A DNA stretch of 64,000 nt, taken from contig JAJYIF010000015.1 in the NCBI GenBank assembly GCA_021790195.1, positions 1 through 64,000 of the forward strand, written 5' to 3'. Both the position numbers and the translations under genes were made by a program. Below the pieces are notes generated by a model. That model saw only the letters and a list, made by a program, of their open reading frames with translations, was not told the DNA's origin and made no database searches. Of this stretch, positions 56,432 through 64,000 are shown piece by piece. Positions within the stretch are counted from its first letter, which is position 1, and each line of letters opens with the position of its first letter. The DNA comes from Nitrospirota bacterium (GTDB lineage: Bacteria; Nitrospirota; Thermodesulfovibrionia; Thermodesulfovibrionales; UBA9159).

Positions 56432-57820
56432 ATGCGTGGAAGGTTGCCCTCAGGTATTTATATCTTATTAGCCTTGTTCTTACTGCGACCCTTTGTCGCC
56501 CAAGCAGGATCAGTCGATACGACGCTTTCAGTAAACAGAATCCTTTTTGAAGATTTCCTGAAATCACCGCTTCCGTCCAATGCAAAATGGTCCTTTTCAG
56601 CTGTCGACATCAACACGAGAAAGCAGATTATGAATGCAGGCAACTCGGTTGATGTCCCCCTGATACCCGGCTCCCTCGAAAAACTCCTTATCATAGCCGC
56701 CGCAATGGACCTTAACAGCGAAGAAAAGATATCAATGGACACGATAATCGCCCATGACGGGACAATTTCCAACGGCAAGCTCAGGGGCAATCTTTATATT
56801 AAAGGTTCAGGCAACGCCTTCCTTTCCGAAAAGGACTTGGAGATGGCTGTAGAAGAAATCCGTTCCAAAGGGATAAAAGAGATCGCCGGGGACATGGTTG
56901 ACGATGACTCGCTCTTTGAAACAACAGGATGGAAGCATGATTATCAAGGCCCAGCATATTCTTTGCCGGGAGCCCTTGGACTTGACCTTCATACCGTTTC
57001 AGTAACGGTGCTTGGCAGACCGCCGAACAACGTCCGGATAGAGCCTTCCAACGAAGCGGTCAAAGTCATTTTCACTAATGACGGAGTGCCCTCCATACGC
57101 CAGATCGACGACCTCACCTATGAGGTGAGAGGGAGGCTGTCCGATTCGACCGTCATAAGAAAACGGTTCCCCCTCAAAGACCCTTCCGCATATGCCGCCT
57201 TGACGCTTAAGACCCTCCTAAAGAAAAAAGGCATCAGCTTCGAAGGAAAAATATTAAGAGGGAAGACCCCCGCCGAAGCGGAAGATATCCTCACCATAAA
57301 ATCAGAAGCCCTTCCAGAAATCGCCAGGGACACAAACAGAAACAGCCTCAACGTAGTTGCCGACAATCTCCTTCTCTTAATCGGAGCGAAAAGATTCGGC
57401 GCCCCCGGCACAACAGAAAAGGGCCTCATGGCCGTCAGAGAGTTCTTAAGGAACATAGGACTCTCCTCAAAAGATATAGTCCTCGAAGACGGCAGCGGGC
57501 TCTCTCATGAAGACCGCATTACATCCGGGTGGATGGCCGTCTTCCTGGAAGCTATCTCAAAGAAACCCTGGTTCAATGCTTTTTATGAGAGCCTTCCCAG
57601 AGCCGGCATAGACGGGACCCTCAAAGACATCAGCTACAAGAACGAACATATCAGGGCAAAAACCGGACAGTTGAGAGACGCCTCGTGCATCGCCGGATAC
57701 CTGGAAAGAGAAGACAAGAGCAAGATAGCCTTCTCTTATATGGTAAACGTGCCCGGAGCCGATCTCCTTCATAAAGACATAGGCCCCCTCCTGGAAAGAT
57801 TATACGGTGAGAGATTATGA
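56432..57820 (+). CDS. dacB: D-alanyl-D-alanine carboxypeptidase/endopeptidase (PBP4, S13 family)
   Basis: 462 residues. Signal peptide (8-26). S13 serine peptidase motifs: SxxK Ser81-Leu-Glu-Lys84 (LIPGSLEKL), SxN Ser304-Leu-Asn306, and KTG at 409-411 (RAKTGQLRD). Cleaves terminal D-Ala or D-Ala cross-links of peptidoglycan in the periplasm. CAGGAGGGGC precedes the ATG. Its stop overlaps the start of the propeller gene (ATGA), so it heads a translationally coupled run of exported proteins; the tandem CAATATAGGTC boxes upstream may activate them. Confidence 0.9.
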   Translation: MRGRLPSGIYILLALFLLRPFVAQAGSVDTTLSVNRILFEDFLKSPLPSNAKWSFSAVDINTRKQIMNAGNSVDVPLIPGSLEKLLIIAAAMDLNSEEKISMDTIIAHDGTISNGKLRGNLYIKGSGNAFLSEKDLEMAVEEIRSKGIKEIAGDMVDDDSLFETTGWKHDYQGPAYSLPGALGLDLHTVSVTVLGRPPNNVRIEPSNEAVKVIFTNDGVPSIRQIDDLTYEVRGRLSDSTVIRKRFPLKDPSAYAALTLKTLLKKKGISFEGKILRGKTPAEAEDILTIKSEALPEIARDTNRNSLNVVADNLLLLIGAKRFGAPGTTEKGLMAVREFLRNIGLSSKDIVLEDGSGLSHEDRITSGWMAVFLEAISKKPWFNAFYESLPRAGIDGTLKDISYKNEHIRAKTGQLRDASCIAGYLEREDKSKIAFSYMVNVPGADLLHKDIGPLLERLYGERL

Positions 57821-60800
57821 AGCTTAAGGTTTGGAGCTCTCTATTTATTCTCATGCTCCTGCTTGCGCCTTCCATTTCATGGGCGGTCTGCTCCACAGTA
57901 AGCATCCAGATACCTCAACAGCTCACCCTCGAAAGAATAGCCTTTGACGCCAAGATGGTCATTACAAACAACGTCCCGGACAAGGACCTCACAAACATAC
58001 GTGTGGATTTAAACATAAAGGACACTGACGGCAACGACAAGAGCGGCCTCTTTTATACGAGAGTTGTCTCGGCAACCAATGTTGGCGCGGTGGACGGCAC
58101 AGGCACGGTGGCGGCGGCAACCACGGGAGAGATACACTGGCTCATCATACCCTCACCGGGCGCAGGCGGCAGCGATCCGGCCGGAGTCCTTTACTGGGTG
58201 GGCGCAACACTGACCTACACAGTCGGCGGGAATAACGAGACAGTCTCCGTTAATCCCGACAAGATAACCGTGGAGCCGCAGGCCCAGCTGATACTGGATT
58301 ATTTCATGCCTTATGAGGTCATCGGCGATAACCCGTTCACCTCCCAGGTGGAGCCTCCCCAGCCTTTTCCCCTTGCCGTCAGGGTGGCGAATGTTGGATA
58401 CGGGACCGCGAACAAACTGAAGATAGACTCGGCCCAGCCGAAGATAGTGGATAACAAGCAGGGCCTCCTGGTGGATTTCAGGCTCCTCGGCGCCTCTGTG
58501 AACGACAGCGCGGTGTCCCCCTCCCTCACTGTCGATATCGGGACTCTTGCGAGCAGCCAGATCGCAACCGCTTACTGGGAGATGATATCTACCTTAAGCG
58601 GGCACTTCATCGGCTTCGACGTGACATTTTCTCACGCCTCGGACCTGGGAGGAGAGCTCACTTCAATCATAAAACAGACAAACGCCTATTATCTCGTGCA
58701 CAGGGTCAGAGTGAATCTTCCGGGCAGGGACAACCGCCTCGATTTCCTTGCAGACACTGTTAATAGTCCCGATCACCTTCCGAACAAGATATTCGAATCA
58801 GAAATCCCAAACGGCTCGACCAACATAGACGACTCCGTATCTCCGGTTACGGTTGTGGCGGTGACGTCGGCCCCGAGCCCTCCGACTCCGCAGCAGCCGA
58901 ATGTGACCATGCAGGTTGCCACGGGGGACAGCGGCTGGGTGTATGCGAGGCTCCCTGATCCGGCCATGGGGTTGCTGAAGCTGCAGGATGTCGTAAGGTC
59001 CGACGGAGTGCATCTCGATCCTAACAACTTCTGGATAGCTGAGGGCTTCGATAGCAATTACCAGCAGACGTTTACGCTTAACCTCCTCGATTACAGGATG
59101 GACGGAAGCGCTCCCGGGACTTATACGCTCGTATATGCGCAGCCGGTGCAGGACACCATCCCCCCGGTCACGACCCTTGTTTATAACGGACCGTATGAGG
59201 GGACGAACCCCGTTTACATCACCCCGGACACGAAGATAATCTTCACCGCCACCGACAACCCCGGCGGAAGCGGGGTGGCGAGTGTGCTGAAGAAGCTCGT
59301 AGGAGCGGACACTGACTTTGTACCAGCATTTCCGATGAGCATCACCAATCCCGGCAATGCAGAGCTCGATTATTACAGCATCGACAGGGCCGGCAACAAG
59401 GAAGTTGTCAGGACAACCTATTTTTATGTGGTCAGCGCAGCCCCTAATATCGTATCGTTTCAGGCCGTGCCCGCCACATTCACTCCCCGCGCCCCTGCCG
59501 GCGTGGCCGCAACCAGAAGCATGAACTTTACGATGACCGCGACGAGCGATATCAGCAATCTTCAGTCGACTATAGACATTGCGACCGGCGCCACTTTCGC
59601 CGAGGCCAACATCGTGAAGACTATACAGACGGCCGTTGTTTCGGGAGTTCAGGCGAGTGTCTCCTGGGACGGCAAAGATAAGAATGGAGTGCTTGTTCCC
59701 GCGGGTGTGTATACCGCAAGGCTGAGGGTGACGGACGGCCTGGACGGGGGCGCCACAAGCCATACGTCTTCCTCTGATGTGACTGTCACCGTATCGGACT
59801 GGTTTAAGGGAAACGCCCTCGACCCCAATTTATCCGCGGCGCAGATGTATCCGAAGGTCTCCGGAACCAAAGTAGTCTGGCAGGACCAGAGGAACGGCAA
59901 CTGGAACATCTATCTTAAAGACGTAACGGGCGGCAGCTCGACCGCGATAACCAACACCGCGTCAGACCATATGCGGCCTTCCATAAGCGGCAATATCATT
60001 GTCTGGCAGGACAACCGAAACGGCGACTGGGACATCTACGGCTACGATCTATCGAAAGGACAGGAGTTCGTTATCTGTAATGATCCGGGCAACCAAGAAA
60101 TGCCGGTCATATCCGGAGACTGGGTCGCATGGCAGGACGACAGAGCCGGGAACTGGGACATCTATGCCTACAATCTCTCTACCCAAGAAAAGATACAGGT
60201 CACAAACCATGAAAGGGACCAGATGCATCCCGCCATATCCGGAAACACCCTCGTATGGGAGGATTACAGGAACGGTCTGGGCGATGTATACGAATATGAT
60301 CTGATTTCAAGGATAGAGACGCGGTATACCTTCGGCATCTATAACAAGACATTCCCGGCGATCTCGGGCAACACCATAGCATGGACGGACCAGAGGAACA
60401 ACCAAAGAGATATTTATTTCTCGACCCCGTCCACAAGCGAGATGAGGGTTACCTACGGCACGGGAGACCATTCGCAGTCCGCCGTTTCAAATAACATAAT
60501 CGTGTATACGGACTACGAGACCGGCGCTAATGCTCCGAACCTCGCCTTTTACGATATAACCACAGGAGCGGGTGAAAAGCTTACAACGGATACATCAGGA
60601 CACGAAGCTCCCGCATTAGATGCGGGGGTATTAGCGTGGCAGGACAACAGGGACGGCGTCTTCCAGATATACTGGGCGAACTTCAACATAGAGGAGCTCC
60701 CCATTCAGGCTGTGATCAAGCCGGGCTTCAACCTCGTGGCGGTCGGAGACAGGCTTGCGATTCGGTATTCGAGCGCCTCGGACCTTATAGCGGCCAACCC

Positions 60801-61224
60801 CAATGGAATAGGCATACAGAAAGTCGTCACCTACGACAGTCTGAACGGAGTGTTCATAGAATCTCCGCCAAACGACGTGGCGCTTTCTAAGGGCATGGGG
60901 ATCGGCCTCTACGCTTCAGGCGGCGGCGTCTTGGATATCGGCGACAGCGGCGAGACTTCGTCCTATACACTGATGCCGGGCCTTAATTACATCGGCATGC
61001 TTACGCCTCCCAGCGGATACACGGCTTATGCTCTGCTTCAGTCAGTAGGCCTTGACAATATCCAGAGCGTGCGGAGGTTCAACAACCAGACAGGATTGTG
61101 GGAAACTGCGGCCGTCAGAGTAACTTCGTCGGGCAAGGAGGCGGTCGGCGTCAATTTCGTCATACGTCAGGGAGACGGTCTGATCATCACGATGGTAAAC
61201 AGGGTGGACCAGTGGAAGCCTTAA
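57817..61224 (+). CDS. Large exported protein with TolB-like beta-propeller
   Basis: 1135 residues with signal peptide (1-23, ending SWAVCS). The N-terminal half has Ig/CARDB-type beta domains. From about 670 to 960 there are six to seven propeller blades of the pattern PxISGNxIVWQDxRNGxWDIYxYDL, as in TolB/WD40-like cell-surface proteins. The last 170 residues form a further beta domain (GFNLVAVGDRLAIRYSS, repeated GLNYIGMLTPPSG). No anchor motif is seen. Probably secreted or outer-surface adhesion or structural; function is not known. Coupled to dacB by a 4-nt overlap. Confidence 0.88.
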   Translation: MKLKVWSSLFILMLLLAPSISWAVCSTVSIQIPQQLTLERIAFDAKMVITNNVPDKDLTNIRVDLNIKDTDGNDKSGLFYTRVVSATNVGAVDGTGTVAAATTGEIHWLIIPSPGAGGSDPAGVLYWVGATLTYTVGGNNETVSVNPDKITVEPQAQLILDYFMPYEVIGDNPFTSQVEPPQPFPLAVRVANVGYGTANKLKIDSAQPKIVDNKQGLLVDFRLLGASVNDSAVSPSLTVDIGTLASSQIATAYWEMISTLSGHFIGFDVTFSHASDLGGELTSIIKQTNAYYLVHRVRVNLPGRDNRLDFLADTVNSPDHLPNKIFESEIPNGSTNIDDSVSPVTVVAVTSAPSPPTPQQPNVTMQVATGDSGWVYARLPDPAMGLLKLQDVVRSDGVHLDPNNFWIAEGFDSNYQQTFTLNLLDYRMDGSAPGTYTLVYAQPVQDTIPPVTTLVYNGPYEGTNPVYITPDTKIIFTATDNPGGSGVASVLKKLVGADTDFVPAFPMSITNPGNAELDYYSIDRAGNKEVVRTTYFYVVSAAPNIVSFQAVPATFTPRAPAGVAATRSMNFTMTATSDISNLQSTIDIATGATFAEANIVKTIQTAVVSGVQASVSWDGKDKNGVLVPAGVYTARLRVTDGLDGGATSHTSSSDVTVTVSDWFKGNALDPNLSAAQMYPKVSGTKVVWQDQRNGNWNIYLKDVTGGSSTAITNTASDHMRPSISGNIIVWQDNRNGDWDIYGYDLSKGQEFVICNDPGNQEMPVISGDWVAWQDDRAGNWDIYAYNLSTQEKIQVTNHERDQMHPAISGNTLVWEDYRNGLGDVYEYDLISRIETRYTFGIYNKTFPAISGNTIAWTDQRNNQRDIYFSTPSTSEMRVTYGTGDHSQSAVSNNIIVYTDYETGANAPNLAFYDITTGAGEKLTTDTSGHEAPALDAGVLAWQDNRDGVFQIYWANFNIEELPIQAVIKPGFNLVAVGDRLAIRYSSASDLIAANPNGIGIQKVVTYDSLNGVFIESPPNDVALSKGMGIGLYASGGGVLDIGDSGETSSYTLMPGLNYIGMLTPPSGYTAYALLQSVGLDNIQSVRRFNNQTGLWETAAVRVTSSGKEAVGVNFVIRQGDGLIITMVNRVDQWKP

Positions 61225-62060
61225 GGGACTCCAAAATAAAGTCTTCGCCGAAAAGGCCTGCTTCCGGGGCCCTAAGATGTTTTGCGTTCATTGCCGCATT
61301 TGTTCTTCTTATCCCGGTTGCGGCTCTTTCTTCAGACGGAATCGGCTGGAAGTGGATAGAGGGAGGATCGGTGCGGAATATGCTCAAGGAAGGCAGCGCC
61401 CTGTGGCTGATAGACCTCAGAGGCTCAAGCGCATACGATTCGGAGCATATCGAGGGTTCGGTCAATATCCCGGCCTCTTTCCTGCAGCACAGGGGATTAC
61501 CGAGGAACAAGACGATTGTGCTTGTGGACGATTATCTCGGGCAAAGAATTTCGCGGGAGGCAGCGGATGAGCTTGTCAAAGAGGGATATGAGAAGGTGTA
61601 TGTCCTCAATGGGGGCATAGTCCTCTGGAGGCTTGAGGGATTCCCCGTGGTTGAGAAAAAGCCCGTGGTCAGGGGAGTTACCCGGGATGAGCTCAAGTGG
61701 GCGATCGAAAACAACATAGCATTAAGGATACTCGACCTCAGAGACGTTCCCGAGAGGGAAAAAGAAAAGATGCCAAACAGCGAGGGTGTCCCGGGAAAGG
61801 ACATAGCCGAGAGGGCGGGCAAACTGAAAGCAATGATAAAGAAATCGGAGGGCGGCAGCCTTTCTGAAAGATTAAAGAAGCATGAGACGATCATCCTTTT
61901 GACTTCGGCCTCCGTTGACGCAGCTTCTGTTGCCGTAAAAATAGCCCGCGAAGTCAAGGAAGACGTCAGATACCTTATCGGAGGATACGCCGTGTTTGCC
62001 GGCAACGACAAGAAGCCGGCTGGGCTGAAAGGGAGCTGCCCGACATGTCCGGGGAAATAA
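61212..62060 (+). CDS. Exported protein with two degenerate rhodanese domains
   Basis: 282 residues from GTG 61212, which lies 11 nt inside the previous stop region with AGGGTGG upstream; the longer open frame (to 61098) overlaps the propeller gene out of register. Signal-anchor segment at about 20-38, then two rhodanese-like units: LWLIDLRGSSAYDSEHIEGSVNIP and LRILDLRDVPEREKEK. The catalytic Cys is missing in both (VDDYLGQR and LLTSASVDAAS where YCxxGxR is expected), so sulfurtransfer is unlikely. It ends CPTCPGK. Perhaps a structural or binding role. Confidence 0.8.
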   Translation: MEALRDSKIKSSPKRPASGALRCFAFIAAFVLLIPVAALSSDGIGWKWIEGGSVRNMLKEGSALWLIDLRGSSAYDSEHIEGSVNIPASFLQHRGLPRNKTIVLVDDYLGQRISREAADELVKEGYEKVYVLNGGIVLWRLEGFPVVEKKPVVRGVTRDELKWAIENNIALRILDLRDVPEREKEKMPNSEGVPGKDIAERAGKLKAMIKKSEGGSLSERLKKHETIILLTSASVDAASVAVKIAREVKEDVRYLIGGYAVFAGNDKKPAGLKGSCPTCPGK

Positions 62061-62068
62061 GGAAAGAA

Positions 62069-63103
62069 ATGAACATTAAACCACAGAGACACAGGGTCAC
62101 AGAGAAAAGCAAAGGGACTTATTATAATCGTTTGAAAGAAACAGCGTTTACCCTCTGTGTCTCAGTGCCTCTGTGGTTATTCTTGCTTCTGGGATTTTCT
62201 GCAGAGACTTTTGCAGTCCCTGACACAAACAGCGTCCGGATAACCGACGTTACTCCATGCTCTTTCTCGGTGGTCTGGATGACCGATATCGCCGCTCAGC
62301 CTTCAGTGGAGGTTTATTCCGACAGCGCAATGACGAATCAGATCACGGATACGGTTTCTATTACGCCCATGCCTGCAGCGAGTCAGGGTACAGTCCAGGC
62401 GGCGACTAACAAAGGGATAATGAAGGTAATGGTCTCGGGACTGAGCGCATCAACCAATTACTATGTAAGGACCGTGACCACGGATCCTTCGAATCCTTCG
62501 AACATAGCCTACTCGCCCCTGTATCAGGTTGTGACGGCATCGGCAGTCGTTCCTTATAACTATTCAAGCGGCCCGGCGGCCGGGTTCTCCAATGACCTTG
62601 TCCCCTTTTCGGTCTACATACGGCCTTCTGATACGGATGCAACACCGGGGCTCGGCGATCTTATAGTCCTGCAGACCGACGGCTCTCCCTATCCGGTCAG
62701 TGCCTTTGTCGGCGAGGGTATTGCAGCGCCCGAAGGCATTGCGGACCTGAACAACCTCTTTGGAAGTGACGGCCTGAGCCGTAATCTCATAGGAGGAGAG
62801 AGAATAATTCTCATGGTCTACAGGGGAGCCGGACTGCTCGCGCTCACTCATTACAGAAGGGTCCCCCAGAACGGAAATATGGTCTATGTAGCCGAGCCTG
62901 CCAAAGGCTTTTTCGCCGATATAAATCTTGACGGCAATGTGGACGATCAGGATTTTGCCCTGTTCAAGAGCCAATACGGGACATCCGCCGATGACGCCAA
63001 TTATAATCCCGACTTCAATTTTGTGGACGATCCCGGAGGCAAGGTTGACGCCAGGTCTTTCTCAAAATTCTCAAGCGAATACGGAAAGACAAATGTCCAG
63101 TAA
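62069..63103 (+). CDS. Exported FN3-dockerin protein with repeat-derived N-terminus
   Basis: 344 residues from ATG 62069 (AAGGAAAG upstream; the open frame to 62045 lies in the previous gene). Residues 1-50 are encoded by the palindrome at 62079-62178; its right arm gives LCVSVPLWLF, the hydrophobic core of what looks like a signal peptide ending SAETFA. Then a fibronectin-III-like domain (about 60-150), a middle domain, and at the C-terminus a dockerin-like pair: DINLDGNVDDQDFALFKSQYG and DFNFVDDPGGKVDARSFSKF, with Ca-binding Asp/Asn positions in the first. Likely binds the cohesin-like domain encoded next. Non-cellulosomal, since no glycoside hydrolase is present. Confidence 0.82.
   Translation: MNIKPQRHRVTEKSKGTYYNRLKETAFTLCVSVPLWLFLLLGFSAETFAVPDTNSVRITDVTPCSFSVVWMTDIAAQPSVEVYSDSAMTNQITDTVSITPMPAASQGTVQAATNKGIMKVMVSGLSASTNYYVRTVTTDPSNPSNIAYSPLYQVVTASAVVPYNYSSGPAAGFSNDLVPFSVYIRPSDTDATPGLGDLIVLQTDGSPYPVSAFVGEGIAAPEGIADLNNLFGSDGLSRNLIGGERIILMVYRGAGLLALTHYRRVPQNGNMVYVAEPAKGFFADINLDGNVDDQDFALFKSQYGTSADDANYNPDFNFVDDPGGKVDARSFSKFSSEYGKTNVQ
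62079..62178. repeat. CCACAGAG-type palindrome inside the dockerin gene start
   Basis: Left arm AACCACAGAGACACAG.. (62079-62104) and right arm ..GCCTCTGTGGTT (62153-62178); 22 of 26 positions pair, around a 48-nt spacer. Confidence 0.85.
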
Positions 63104-63118
63104 GAAACGGGAAAAGGC

Positions 63119-64000
63119 ATGAAGATTAAACCACAGAGGCACAGAGACGCTGAGCAAAAAAGAGTGAAATCTTTGATGAAGAACGTATTGGTTTATTCTT
63201 TTGCTTTTCTCTGTGTCTCCGTGTCTCTGTGGTTCCTGACCGAGAGCTTGTCCCATGCTGCGGACATAAAGGTGGTCCCCTCTTCAGCGCAGGTGACCCC
63301 GGGAGGGACCTTCTATATAGATGTAGTTGTGGACAATATCCCTTCCGGAGGCCTCGGGGCAATACAATTCAGGTTGAACGTAAACGCGCAGGGATCTTCT
63401 GTCGTCTCTGTTTCCGACACCGGTCAGGCGACCTCGGACGCCGTATCAGTGGCAAGCCCCTTATTGATAGGGCCTCCGACCTCAAGCCGCTCCGGGATAG
63501 GCGATTTCTTCTGGAACGCGGCAGGCCCAAATGGTATTCTCGCCATCGACAACGAGCAGTTCAATAACGGCTCCGCCCTGTTCACCTTTGGTCATACGAG
63601 CGGCGCTATCCTTCCCCAGGGCGGCGGCACAGTGGCGAGGTTCCTCTGCGCCGTCGGCGCCGGCGTTGTGGCCGACAAGATAGACATCGCTCTTTCGGAC
63701 GTCATGCTTCTTAACGCTGGGACCGAATATCCCCTTGACAGCAATACGGGCGCCTCGGTGGAGCTCAGATGCATGGCAGCGGTCCCAAGCCTGCTTGGCC
63801 TTTCTCAGGTGGACGCGCAGGCCGCCCTCCAGGGGGCAAACCTGCTTTTGGGAAACGTATCGGAGATAGACAACCACAACGGAGCGTATGCGCTTAATAA
63901 AGTCCTTTCGCAATCAGTTGCGCCGGGGACATCCGTGCTCTGCGGGACTGCCGTCGATCTTGTCATAAACACGCCGCCGCTCGATGTGACAAACGCCTCG
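63119..64000 (+). CDS. Exported cohesin-PASTA protein, N-terminal part (open at window edge)
   Basis: Reads 294 codons without a stop to the last base, so it continues past the window. The N-terminus again comes from the palindrome (63129-63234): MKIKPQRHRDAEQK, then LCVSVSLWFL as the signal core, ending SHAAD. Cohesin-like domain from about 43 (DIKVVPSSAQVTPGGTFYIDVVVDNIPSGGLGAIQFRL). At about 222-288 a PASTA domain (VPSLLGLSQVDAQAALQGANLL ... SQSVAPGTSVLCGTAVDLVINTP). Ends TNAS at the edge. The cohesin call fits the dockerin gene 16 nt upstream. PASTA in an exported Gram-negative protein is likely a structural module. Confidence 0.78.
   Translation, partial: MKIKPQRHRDAEQKRVKSLMKNVLVYSFAFLCVSVSLWFLTESLSHAADIKVVPSSAQVTPGGTFYIDVVVDNIPSGGLGAIQFRLNVNAQGSSVVSVSDTGQATSDAVSVASPLLIGPPTSSRSGIGDFFWNAAGPNGILAIDNEQFNNGSALFTFGHTSGAILPQGGGTVARFLCAVGAGVVADKIDIALSDVMLLNAGTEYPLDSNTGASVELRCMAAVPSLLGLSQVDAQAALQGANLLLGNVSEIDNHNGAYALNKVLSQSVAPGTSVLCGTAVDLVINTPPLDVTNAS
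63129..63234. repeat. CCACAGAG-type palindrome inside the cohesin gene start
   Basis: Left arm AACCACAGAGGCACAGAG.. (63129-63154), right arm ..TGTCTCTGTGGTT (63209-63234), 22 of 26 pair. Same arrangement relative to the start codon as the dockerin gene. Confidence 0.85.

Follow-up and report, generated by a model that had tools for sequence, protein, structure and literature searches.

The window, by which we mean the whole 64,000-nucleotide stretch of Nitrospirota DNA that was analysed, closes on a run of exported-type genes (positions 57817-64000) with PD40 beta-propeller, rhodanese-like, dockerin-like (by eye) and cohesin/PASTA members, a composition that suggests a cell-surface assembly. 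Two adjacent genes of this run, referred to here as gene 1 and gene 2, each open with a palindrome. The features are as follows (an arrow marks a predicted cleavage site).

62058-62060, forward strand: stop codon of the upstream rhodanese-like gene, with ATG 62069 just after it
62060..62063, forward strand: Shine-Dalgarno-like AGGA, 5 nt before ATG 62069
62069..63103, forward strand: gene 1, 344 aa, exported-type, with the rhodanese-like gene upstream
62069..62215, forward strand: predicted signal peptide of gene 1, cleavage at about TFA↓VPD, from hydropathy and the ortholog-aligned cleavage region
62079-62178: palindrome 1, opening gene 1
62079..62104, forward strand: purine-rich 5' arm of palindrome 1, coding PQRHRVTE, part of the n-region
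62153..62178, forward strand: pyrimidine-rich 3' arm of palindrome 1, coding LCVSVPLW, first half of the h-region
63119..64000, forward strand: gene 2, about 1,950 aa in all, continuing past the window
63129-63234: palindrome 2, opening gene 2
63129..63154, forward strand: 5' arm of palindrome 2, coding PQRHRDAE when translated from ATG 63119, part of the 5' UTR with a start at ATG 63176
63209..63234, forward strand: 3' arm of palindrome 2, coding LCVSVSLW in the h-region with either start
63176..63259, forward strand: minimal predicted signal peptide of gene 2, MKNVLVYSFAFLCVSVSLWFLTESLSHA↓AD, from hydropathy and ortholog-aligned cleavage

Gene 1 has a weak purple-acid-phosphatase N-terminal/Fn3-like match and a C-terminus that is dockerin-like by eye; gene 2 has PASTA domains and a cohesin-like match below the cut-off. 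From ATG 62069, gene 1 reads MNIKPQRHRVTEK...TLCVSVPLWLFLLLGFSAETFA, with the N-terminus MNIKPQRHR...TLCVSVPLWLFLLLGFSAETFA↓VPD. From ATG 63119, gene 2 reads MKIKPQRHRDAEQ...FLCVSVSLWFLTESLSHAAD, with the N-terminus MKIKPQRHR...FAFLCVSVSLWFLTESLSHA↓AD. The second candidate start of gene 2, ATG 63176, lies inside the hairpin loop, and the 3' arm is translated from either start. The coordinates and translations that a first-pass annotation had given for both gene starts and their arms are correct.

Signal peptides were called on the basis of hydropathy and charge, together with the cleavage motif and a comparison to orthologs. Both genes present the sequence hallmarks of a Sec signal peptide: a basic n-region (net charge +5/+6 from ATG 62069 and ATG 63119, +1 from ATG 63176), a hydrophobic h-region (KD 2.45 for gene 1 and 2.27 for gene 2) and a small-X-small cleavage motif (TFA and SHA, respectively). 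When the palindrome is taken out of gene 2, the best 12-residue KD is 0.55, compared to 2.27 with it, and no h-region is left. In gene 1, the segment LFLLLGF beside the arm is natively hydrophobic. The same annotation had proposed that the palindrome supplies the export signal of both genes; this holds as far as coding goes, in that the palindrome encodes the n-region and/or the core of both predicted signal peptides, with export itself a prediction.

The arms of the two palindromes are 83-85% complementary over 26-30 nt and enclose loops of 46-54 nt. Matches to the arm pattern number 7 in the window, against 0.47 expected (7 was reached in 0 of 100 shuffles), and 35 in the genome, against 6 with a reversed-pattern control; a longer, stricter pattern gave 12 genomic matches and none for the control. 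The remaining copies in this genome are mainly intergenic. Many inverted-arm copies occupy unrelated sites in one genome, as in a dispersed palindromic (MITE-like) repeat. The palindrome ends are TTAA-like and belong to the symmetric consensus, so that element and target are indistinguishable there. Both palindromes fold as RNA hairpins (z -2.2 and -5.0), and those over or beside the start codon have energies of -36 to -75 kcal/mol. Such strong hairpins could hinder translation of the mRNA, unless translation of the upstream gene unfolds them.

Palindrome-free orthologs and the paired copies

The gene order of rhodanese-like gene, gene 1 and gene 2 is kept in two genomes from other families of the same order, G039 and G065, whose gene 1 orthologs are 61% and 57% identical, respectively. 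The arm pattern had no match in either genome. The cleavage regions of gene 1 are TFA↓VPD in the window, ALA↓VPE in G039 and LHA↓LPE in G065; those of gene 2 are SHA↓ADIKV, TYA↓ADIKV and SHA↓AAVKV. This cleavage-site region is all that the signal peptides of the window share with those of G039 and G065, the n- and h-regions being different. The comparison indicates that both genes already coded for predicted exported proteins when the palindrome displaced their n- and h-regions. Replacement of the ancestral signal-peptide sequence is argued because the palindrome-free orthologs differ before the shared cleavage region and gene 2 is otherwise without a hydrophobic segment.

In G039, the gene 2 ortholog has its start region enclosed by another inverted repeat, of 15 nt (AAAGGCAGGGTATGG and CCATACCCTGCCTTT; G039:C30:19965-20099, L037), at the same spot that palindrome 2 occupies in the window; this spot has therefore been disturbed more than once. 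We considered the G039 repeat as a mobile family of its own and rejected it, since just those two exact copies occur in that genome.

Whether the window records two insertions or one bears on the first-pass annotation, which had the repeat co-opted twice in a row. Two copies are indeed present, yet they may not have inserted separately. Over the 30 nt that precede the arm, they share 63% identity, a value above that of all 179 other own-genome pairs (mean 29%, maximum 50%). A single insertion followed by local duplication or gene conversion would account for this match and would make the doublet uninformative on recurrence. We regard this origin of the second copy as possible, with the balance somewhat against it: the loops of the two palindromes differ from each other, the left arms are no closer than average (77% against a mean of 77%), and both flanks consist of an RBS and ATGAA, the shared 30 nt including RBS and ATG, so that part of the match is due to these signals. 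In any case, recurrence is established from other genomes.

Reuse at other gene starts

One case outside the window is ccmH (PF03918, E 1e-51) in two Rhodocyclaceae. In Ca. Desulfobacillus denitrificans, where the gene lies in the ccm operon, the CcmH N-terminus reads MKKPLTTETQRHRGFLCFALLCVLCVSAVNPVSA↓KEAAP, and the palindrome makes up nearly the whole of the predicted signal peptide. In Rhodocyclaceae MAG-168, whose CcmH is 85% identical at the amino-acid level, the palindrome is kept in frame. Both proteins follow the pattern MKKPLTTETQRHRG...LCVLCVS.V..V.A, with one 3-nt indel between them, whereas two palindrome-free ccmH orthologs have the ordinary signal peptides MTARLLFVFCLLSSALGPLNA and MKLRTLVLCCTLLFAGAAMA. 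The nucleotide differences within the signal peptide of the pair fall in synonymous codons (4) and non-synonymous codons (6); the frame is kept, and this count does not establish strong purifying selection. In this Ca. Desulfobacillus denitrificans operon, a second palindrome immediately precedes ccmF (L255:27-104).

Four gene families of one planctomycete order reuse the repeat as well, partly with a second arm type. A PPC gene family has it at L372 (CACAGAG arms) and at four further loci in different genomes (CGCAGAGAA arms). One of these, L374/L414, has the N-terminus MNRSLLGFLLCVLCVLCGENSSASA↓NPP with CGCAGAGAA-type arms, and members without arms (L375, L385) have ordinary signal peptides. 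In members L388, L408 and L412 the coding 3' arm persists, whereas a 5' arm is unrecognisable within the 110 nt ahead of the start codon, a state seen at four planctomycete loci in all. A PQQ-propeller gene has an arm at its start at three loci in different genomes (L390, L405, L416), and single cases are another PPC protein (L397) and a PF00144 protein (L404). The layout with the 5' arm upstream and the ATG in the loop, which is also possible for gene 2, occurs at L390, L397, L404, L405 and L414. Between the orthologous genes at L372 and L374, two arm types occupy the same position, which suggests a repeated target or an exchange of arms.

As judged from these sequences, reuse of the hairpin as a predicted signal peptide recurs in unrelated bacteria, and the co-option proposed for the window is borne out independently in ccmH and the planctomycete genes. 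Of the 19 listed betaproteobacterial copies whose arm is immediately preceded by ATGA, one (ccmH) opens a long ORF and the others are short chance frames; co-option is therefore rare per copy. The arm was also found, among the matches listed, in named genomes of planctomycetes, alpha- and betaproteobacteria, spirochaetes, acidobacteria, chloroflexi, cyanobacteria, armatimonadetes, an archaeon and others. A plasmid DNA search with palindrome 2 returned four weak matches with no gene listed under them.

The census covered 203 distinct palindromes, 110 of them intergenic; copies from genome G095, which lie inside a larger, recently multiplied element, were left out. Where an arm reads into an ORF downstream, the frame is A in 30 cases, B in 22 and C in 27. 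The preference for one frame at gene starts that the first-pass annotation had anticipated is thus absent. An apparent lead of frame A among 90 palindromes of the window's phylum (21/5/6) vanished at 203 with the named genomes included; the depletion of frame B in the smaller set arises because GGTTAA places a stop there. By the annotation's own refuting condition on frame bias the proposal would fall; frame bias is, however, an invalid test of co-option, since the 3' arm reads as hydrophobic whichever frame is used. Over 406 arm ends, the 5' arm has a KD of -2.2 to -2.7 and a net charge of +1.3 to +1.7 in every frame, and the 3' arm a KD of +1.5 to +1.8 in every frame, compared to -0.43 (sd 1.21) for random windows of the same loci. 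The two arms differ in this way because they are complementary, so that codons with a middle A face codons with a middle T; the order of basic first and hydrophobic second consequently appears in both orientations. The palindrome, as translated, is a template for a predicted signal peptide in any frame or orientation.

These same data can be read as tolerance alone, with hairpins inserting anywhere between genes or at gene starts and the arm-coded residues adding nothing needed. The intergenic majority and the absence of a frame bias accord with this, as do the native LFLLLGF of gene 1 and an M16 peptidase of genome G318 (L207), in which the palindrome merely lengthens the n-region and the native h-region is kept. 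We consider it unlikely, however, since the arm provides the principal run of hydrophobic residues ahead of the cleavage site in gene 2, in ccmH and in the planctomycete genes, and the four planctomycete loci retained a coding 3' arm after the 5' arm had ceased to be recognisable. Mis-called starts, with proteins that begin downstream of a palindrome serving in the 5' UTR as a regulatory hairpin or RBS region, are a very improbable explanation that the orthologs have largely refuted already: many copies do sit in the 5' UTR of cytosolic genes such as purD, eno, murI, dnaX and uvrC (N-termini judged by eye) and the hairpin at the start is stable, but a downstream start would strip gene 2 and ccmH, where the next M is inside the mature domain, of a signal peptide that their orthologs have, and ATG 62069 of gene 1 has its Shine-Dalgarno sequence and the position of the G039 start, where the ATG directly follows or overlaps the upstream stop. 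No start downstream of the palindrome leaves gene 2 a signal peptide, the sole option being a TTG that gives MSHAADIK; starts beyond the repeat, which the annotation had named as the outcome that would count against it, are thus disfavoured.

Relation to GxxExxY genes and the proposed route

GxxExxY genes (PF13366/TIGR04256, PDDEXK_3) lie between matching inverted arms in 25 of 31 cases, compared to 0 of 118 shifted control positions. The arm motifs have a period of 8-9 nt (CACAGAG, CACGAAG, CGCAGAT, GCAAAGG, CGCAGAGAA and others), and the exact arm type of the window stands on both sides in 10 of 33. GxxExxY genes are present in 25 of the 39 genomes with the palindrome, compared to 57 of all 396 genomes (Fisher p 2e-14; p 2e-9 without the richest family), with relatedness just partly controlled. 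The palindrome is thus probably a gene-less, MITE-like relative or derivative of an arm-GxxExxY-arm element. The window palindromes are probable derivatives and not the element itself, because their loops carry no GxxExxY gene. GxxExxY would be the mobiliser of the hairpins, although it could instead be cargo or a guest.

The two GxxExxY genes of the window's own genome have degenerate arms or arms of another type than those of the window, one with CCACAGAGGACACAGAG-type arms and the other beside CGCAAAG-type arms (G000:C24:28738-29085, L095; G000:C12:86401-86751, L091). Loci L090-L146 of the same phylum have GxxExxY genes inside periodic inverted arms whose motifs vary by copy, and look like an undescribed element family. 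In G095 (L071, L072, L074, L077), the palindrome is within a larger, nearly identical and recently multiplied element with the outer ends CCCTCTTTCG and CGAAAGA, also seen at contig ends. Literature searches returned nothing describing the arms, or the GxxExxY family, as a mobile element.

We propose that hairpin copies would land at the 5' edge of genes already coding for exported proteins, where an inserted copy would replace or extend the signal peptide native to the gene. The pyrimidine-rich 3' arm would be translated as the hydrophobic core (LCVSVPLW or LCVSVSLW), and the purine-rich 5' arm with the loop would become the basic n-region or, with a start codon in the loop, 5' UTR. The native c-region and cleavage site would be retained. 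Every insertion, in either orientation and in three frames, would present a hydrophilic-basic segment first and a hydrophobic one second. The reading as a whole, that a dispersed hairpin, likely a GxxExxY relative, has repeatedly been co-opted as a predicted signal peptide at the starts of exported genes, has in our estimate a probability of roughly 0.78. It rests on sequence, translation, the contrast with orthologs, recurrence, hydropathy by frame and the arm-gene-arm layout; from these we infer that the genes are translated from these starts, that the proteins are exported and that GxxExxY mobilises the hairpins. We lean only slightly towards the wider view that selfish GxxExxY-type hairpins are a recurrent source of signal peptides, any copy at a gene start being a working or near-working export signal and such signals having become fixed in several lineages, that of ccmH among them.

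To our knowledge, the origin of new signal peptides is poorly documented. A mobile repeat would be a mechanism that does not depend on luck with frame or orientation, and ccmH, the window pair and the planctomycete genes offer natural before-and-after comparisons. Through the link to the uncharacterised GxxExxY family, a palindrome that is among the commonest uncharacterised ones in environmental genomes also gains a suggested identity.

Comparison with known systems

Our literature searches for repeat-derived signal peptides returned precedents of one type only, the Rickettsia palindromic elements (RPEs). These are dispersed palindromes of roughly 100-150 bp that lie in frame within protein-coding genes, and a review describes them as in-frame translational fusions in unrelated metabolic genes, with signal peptides unmentioned there (PMC10969869). 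The likeness is one of behaviour only (palindromic, dispersed, coding in frame); the copies described here differ in standing at gene starts, as predicted signal peptides, and in belonging to a family found in many phyla. MITEs and REP-type extragenic palindromes are likewise short, dispersed and mostly intergenic inverted repeats. Unlike them, the present palindromes have arms that are 8- or 9-nt periodic runs (CACAGAGN, CGCAGAGAA) and variable loops, and the gene tied to them is GxxExxY and not a DDE or RAYT transposase. The GxxExxY loci (TIGR04256/PF13366 PDDEXK_3) have inverted arms of the same kind around a gene that the window palindromes lack. With Sec signal peptides of the SPase I type, the predicted N-termini share a basic n-region, a hydrophobic core and an A-X-A-like cleavage site; in contrast to ordinary ones, the core has many Cys, Ser and Trp residues, and the n- and h-regions would derive from repeat DNA and not from the ancestor of the gene.
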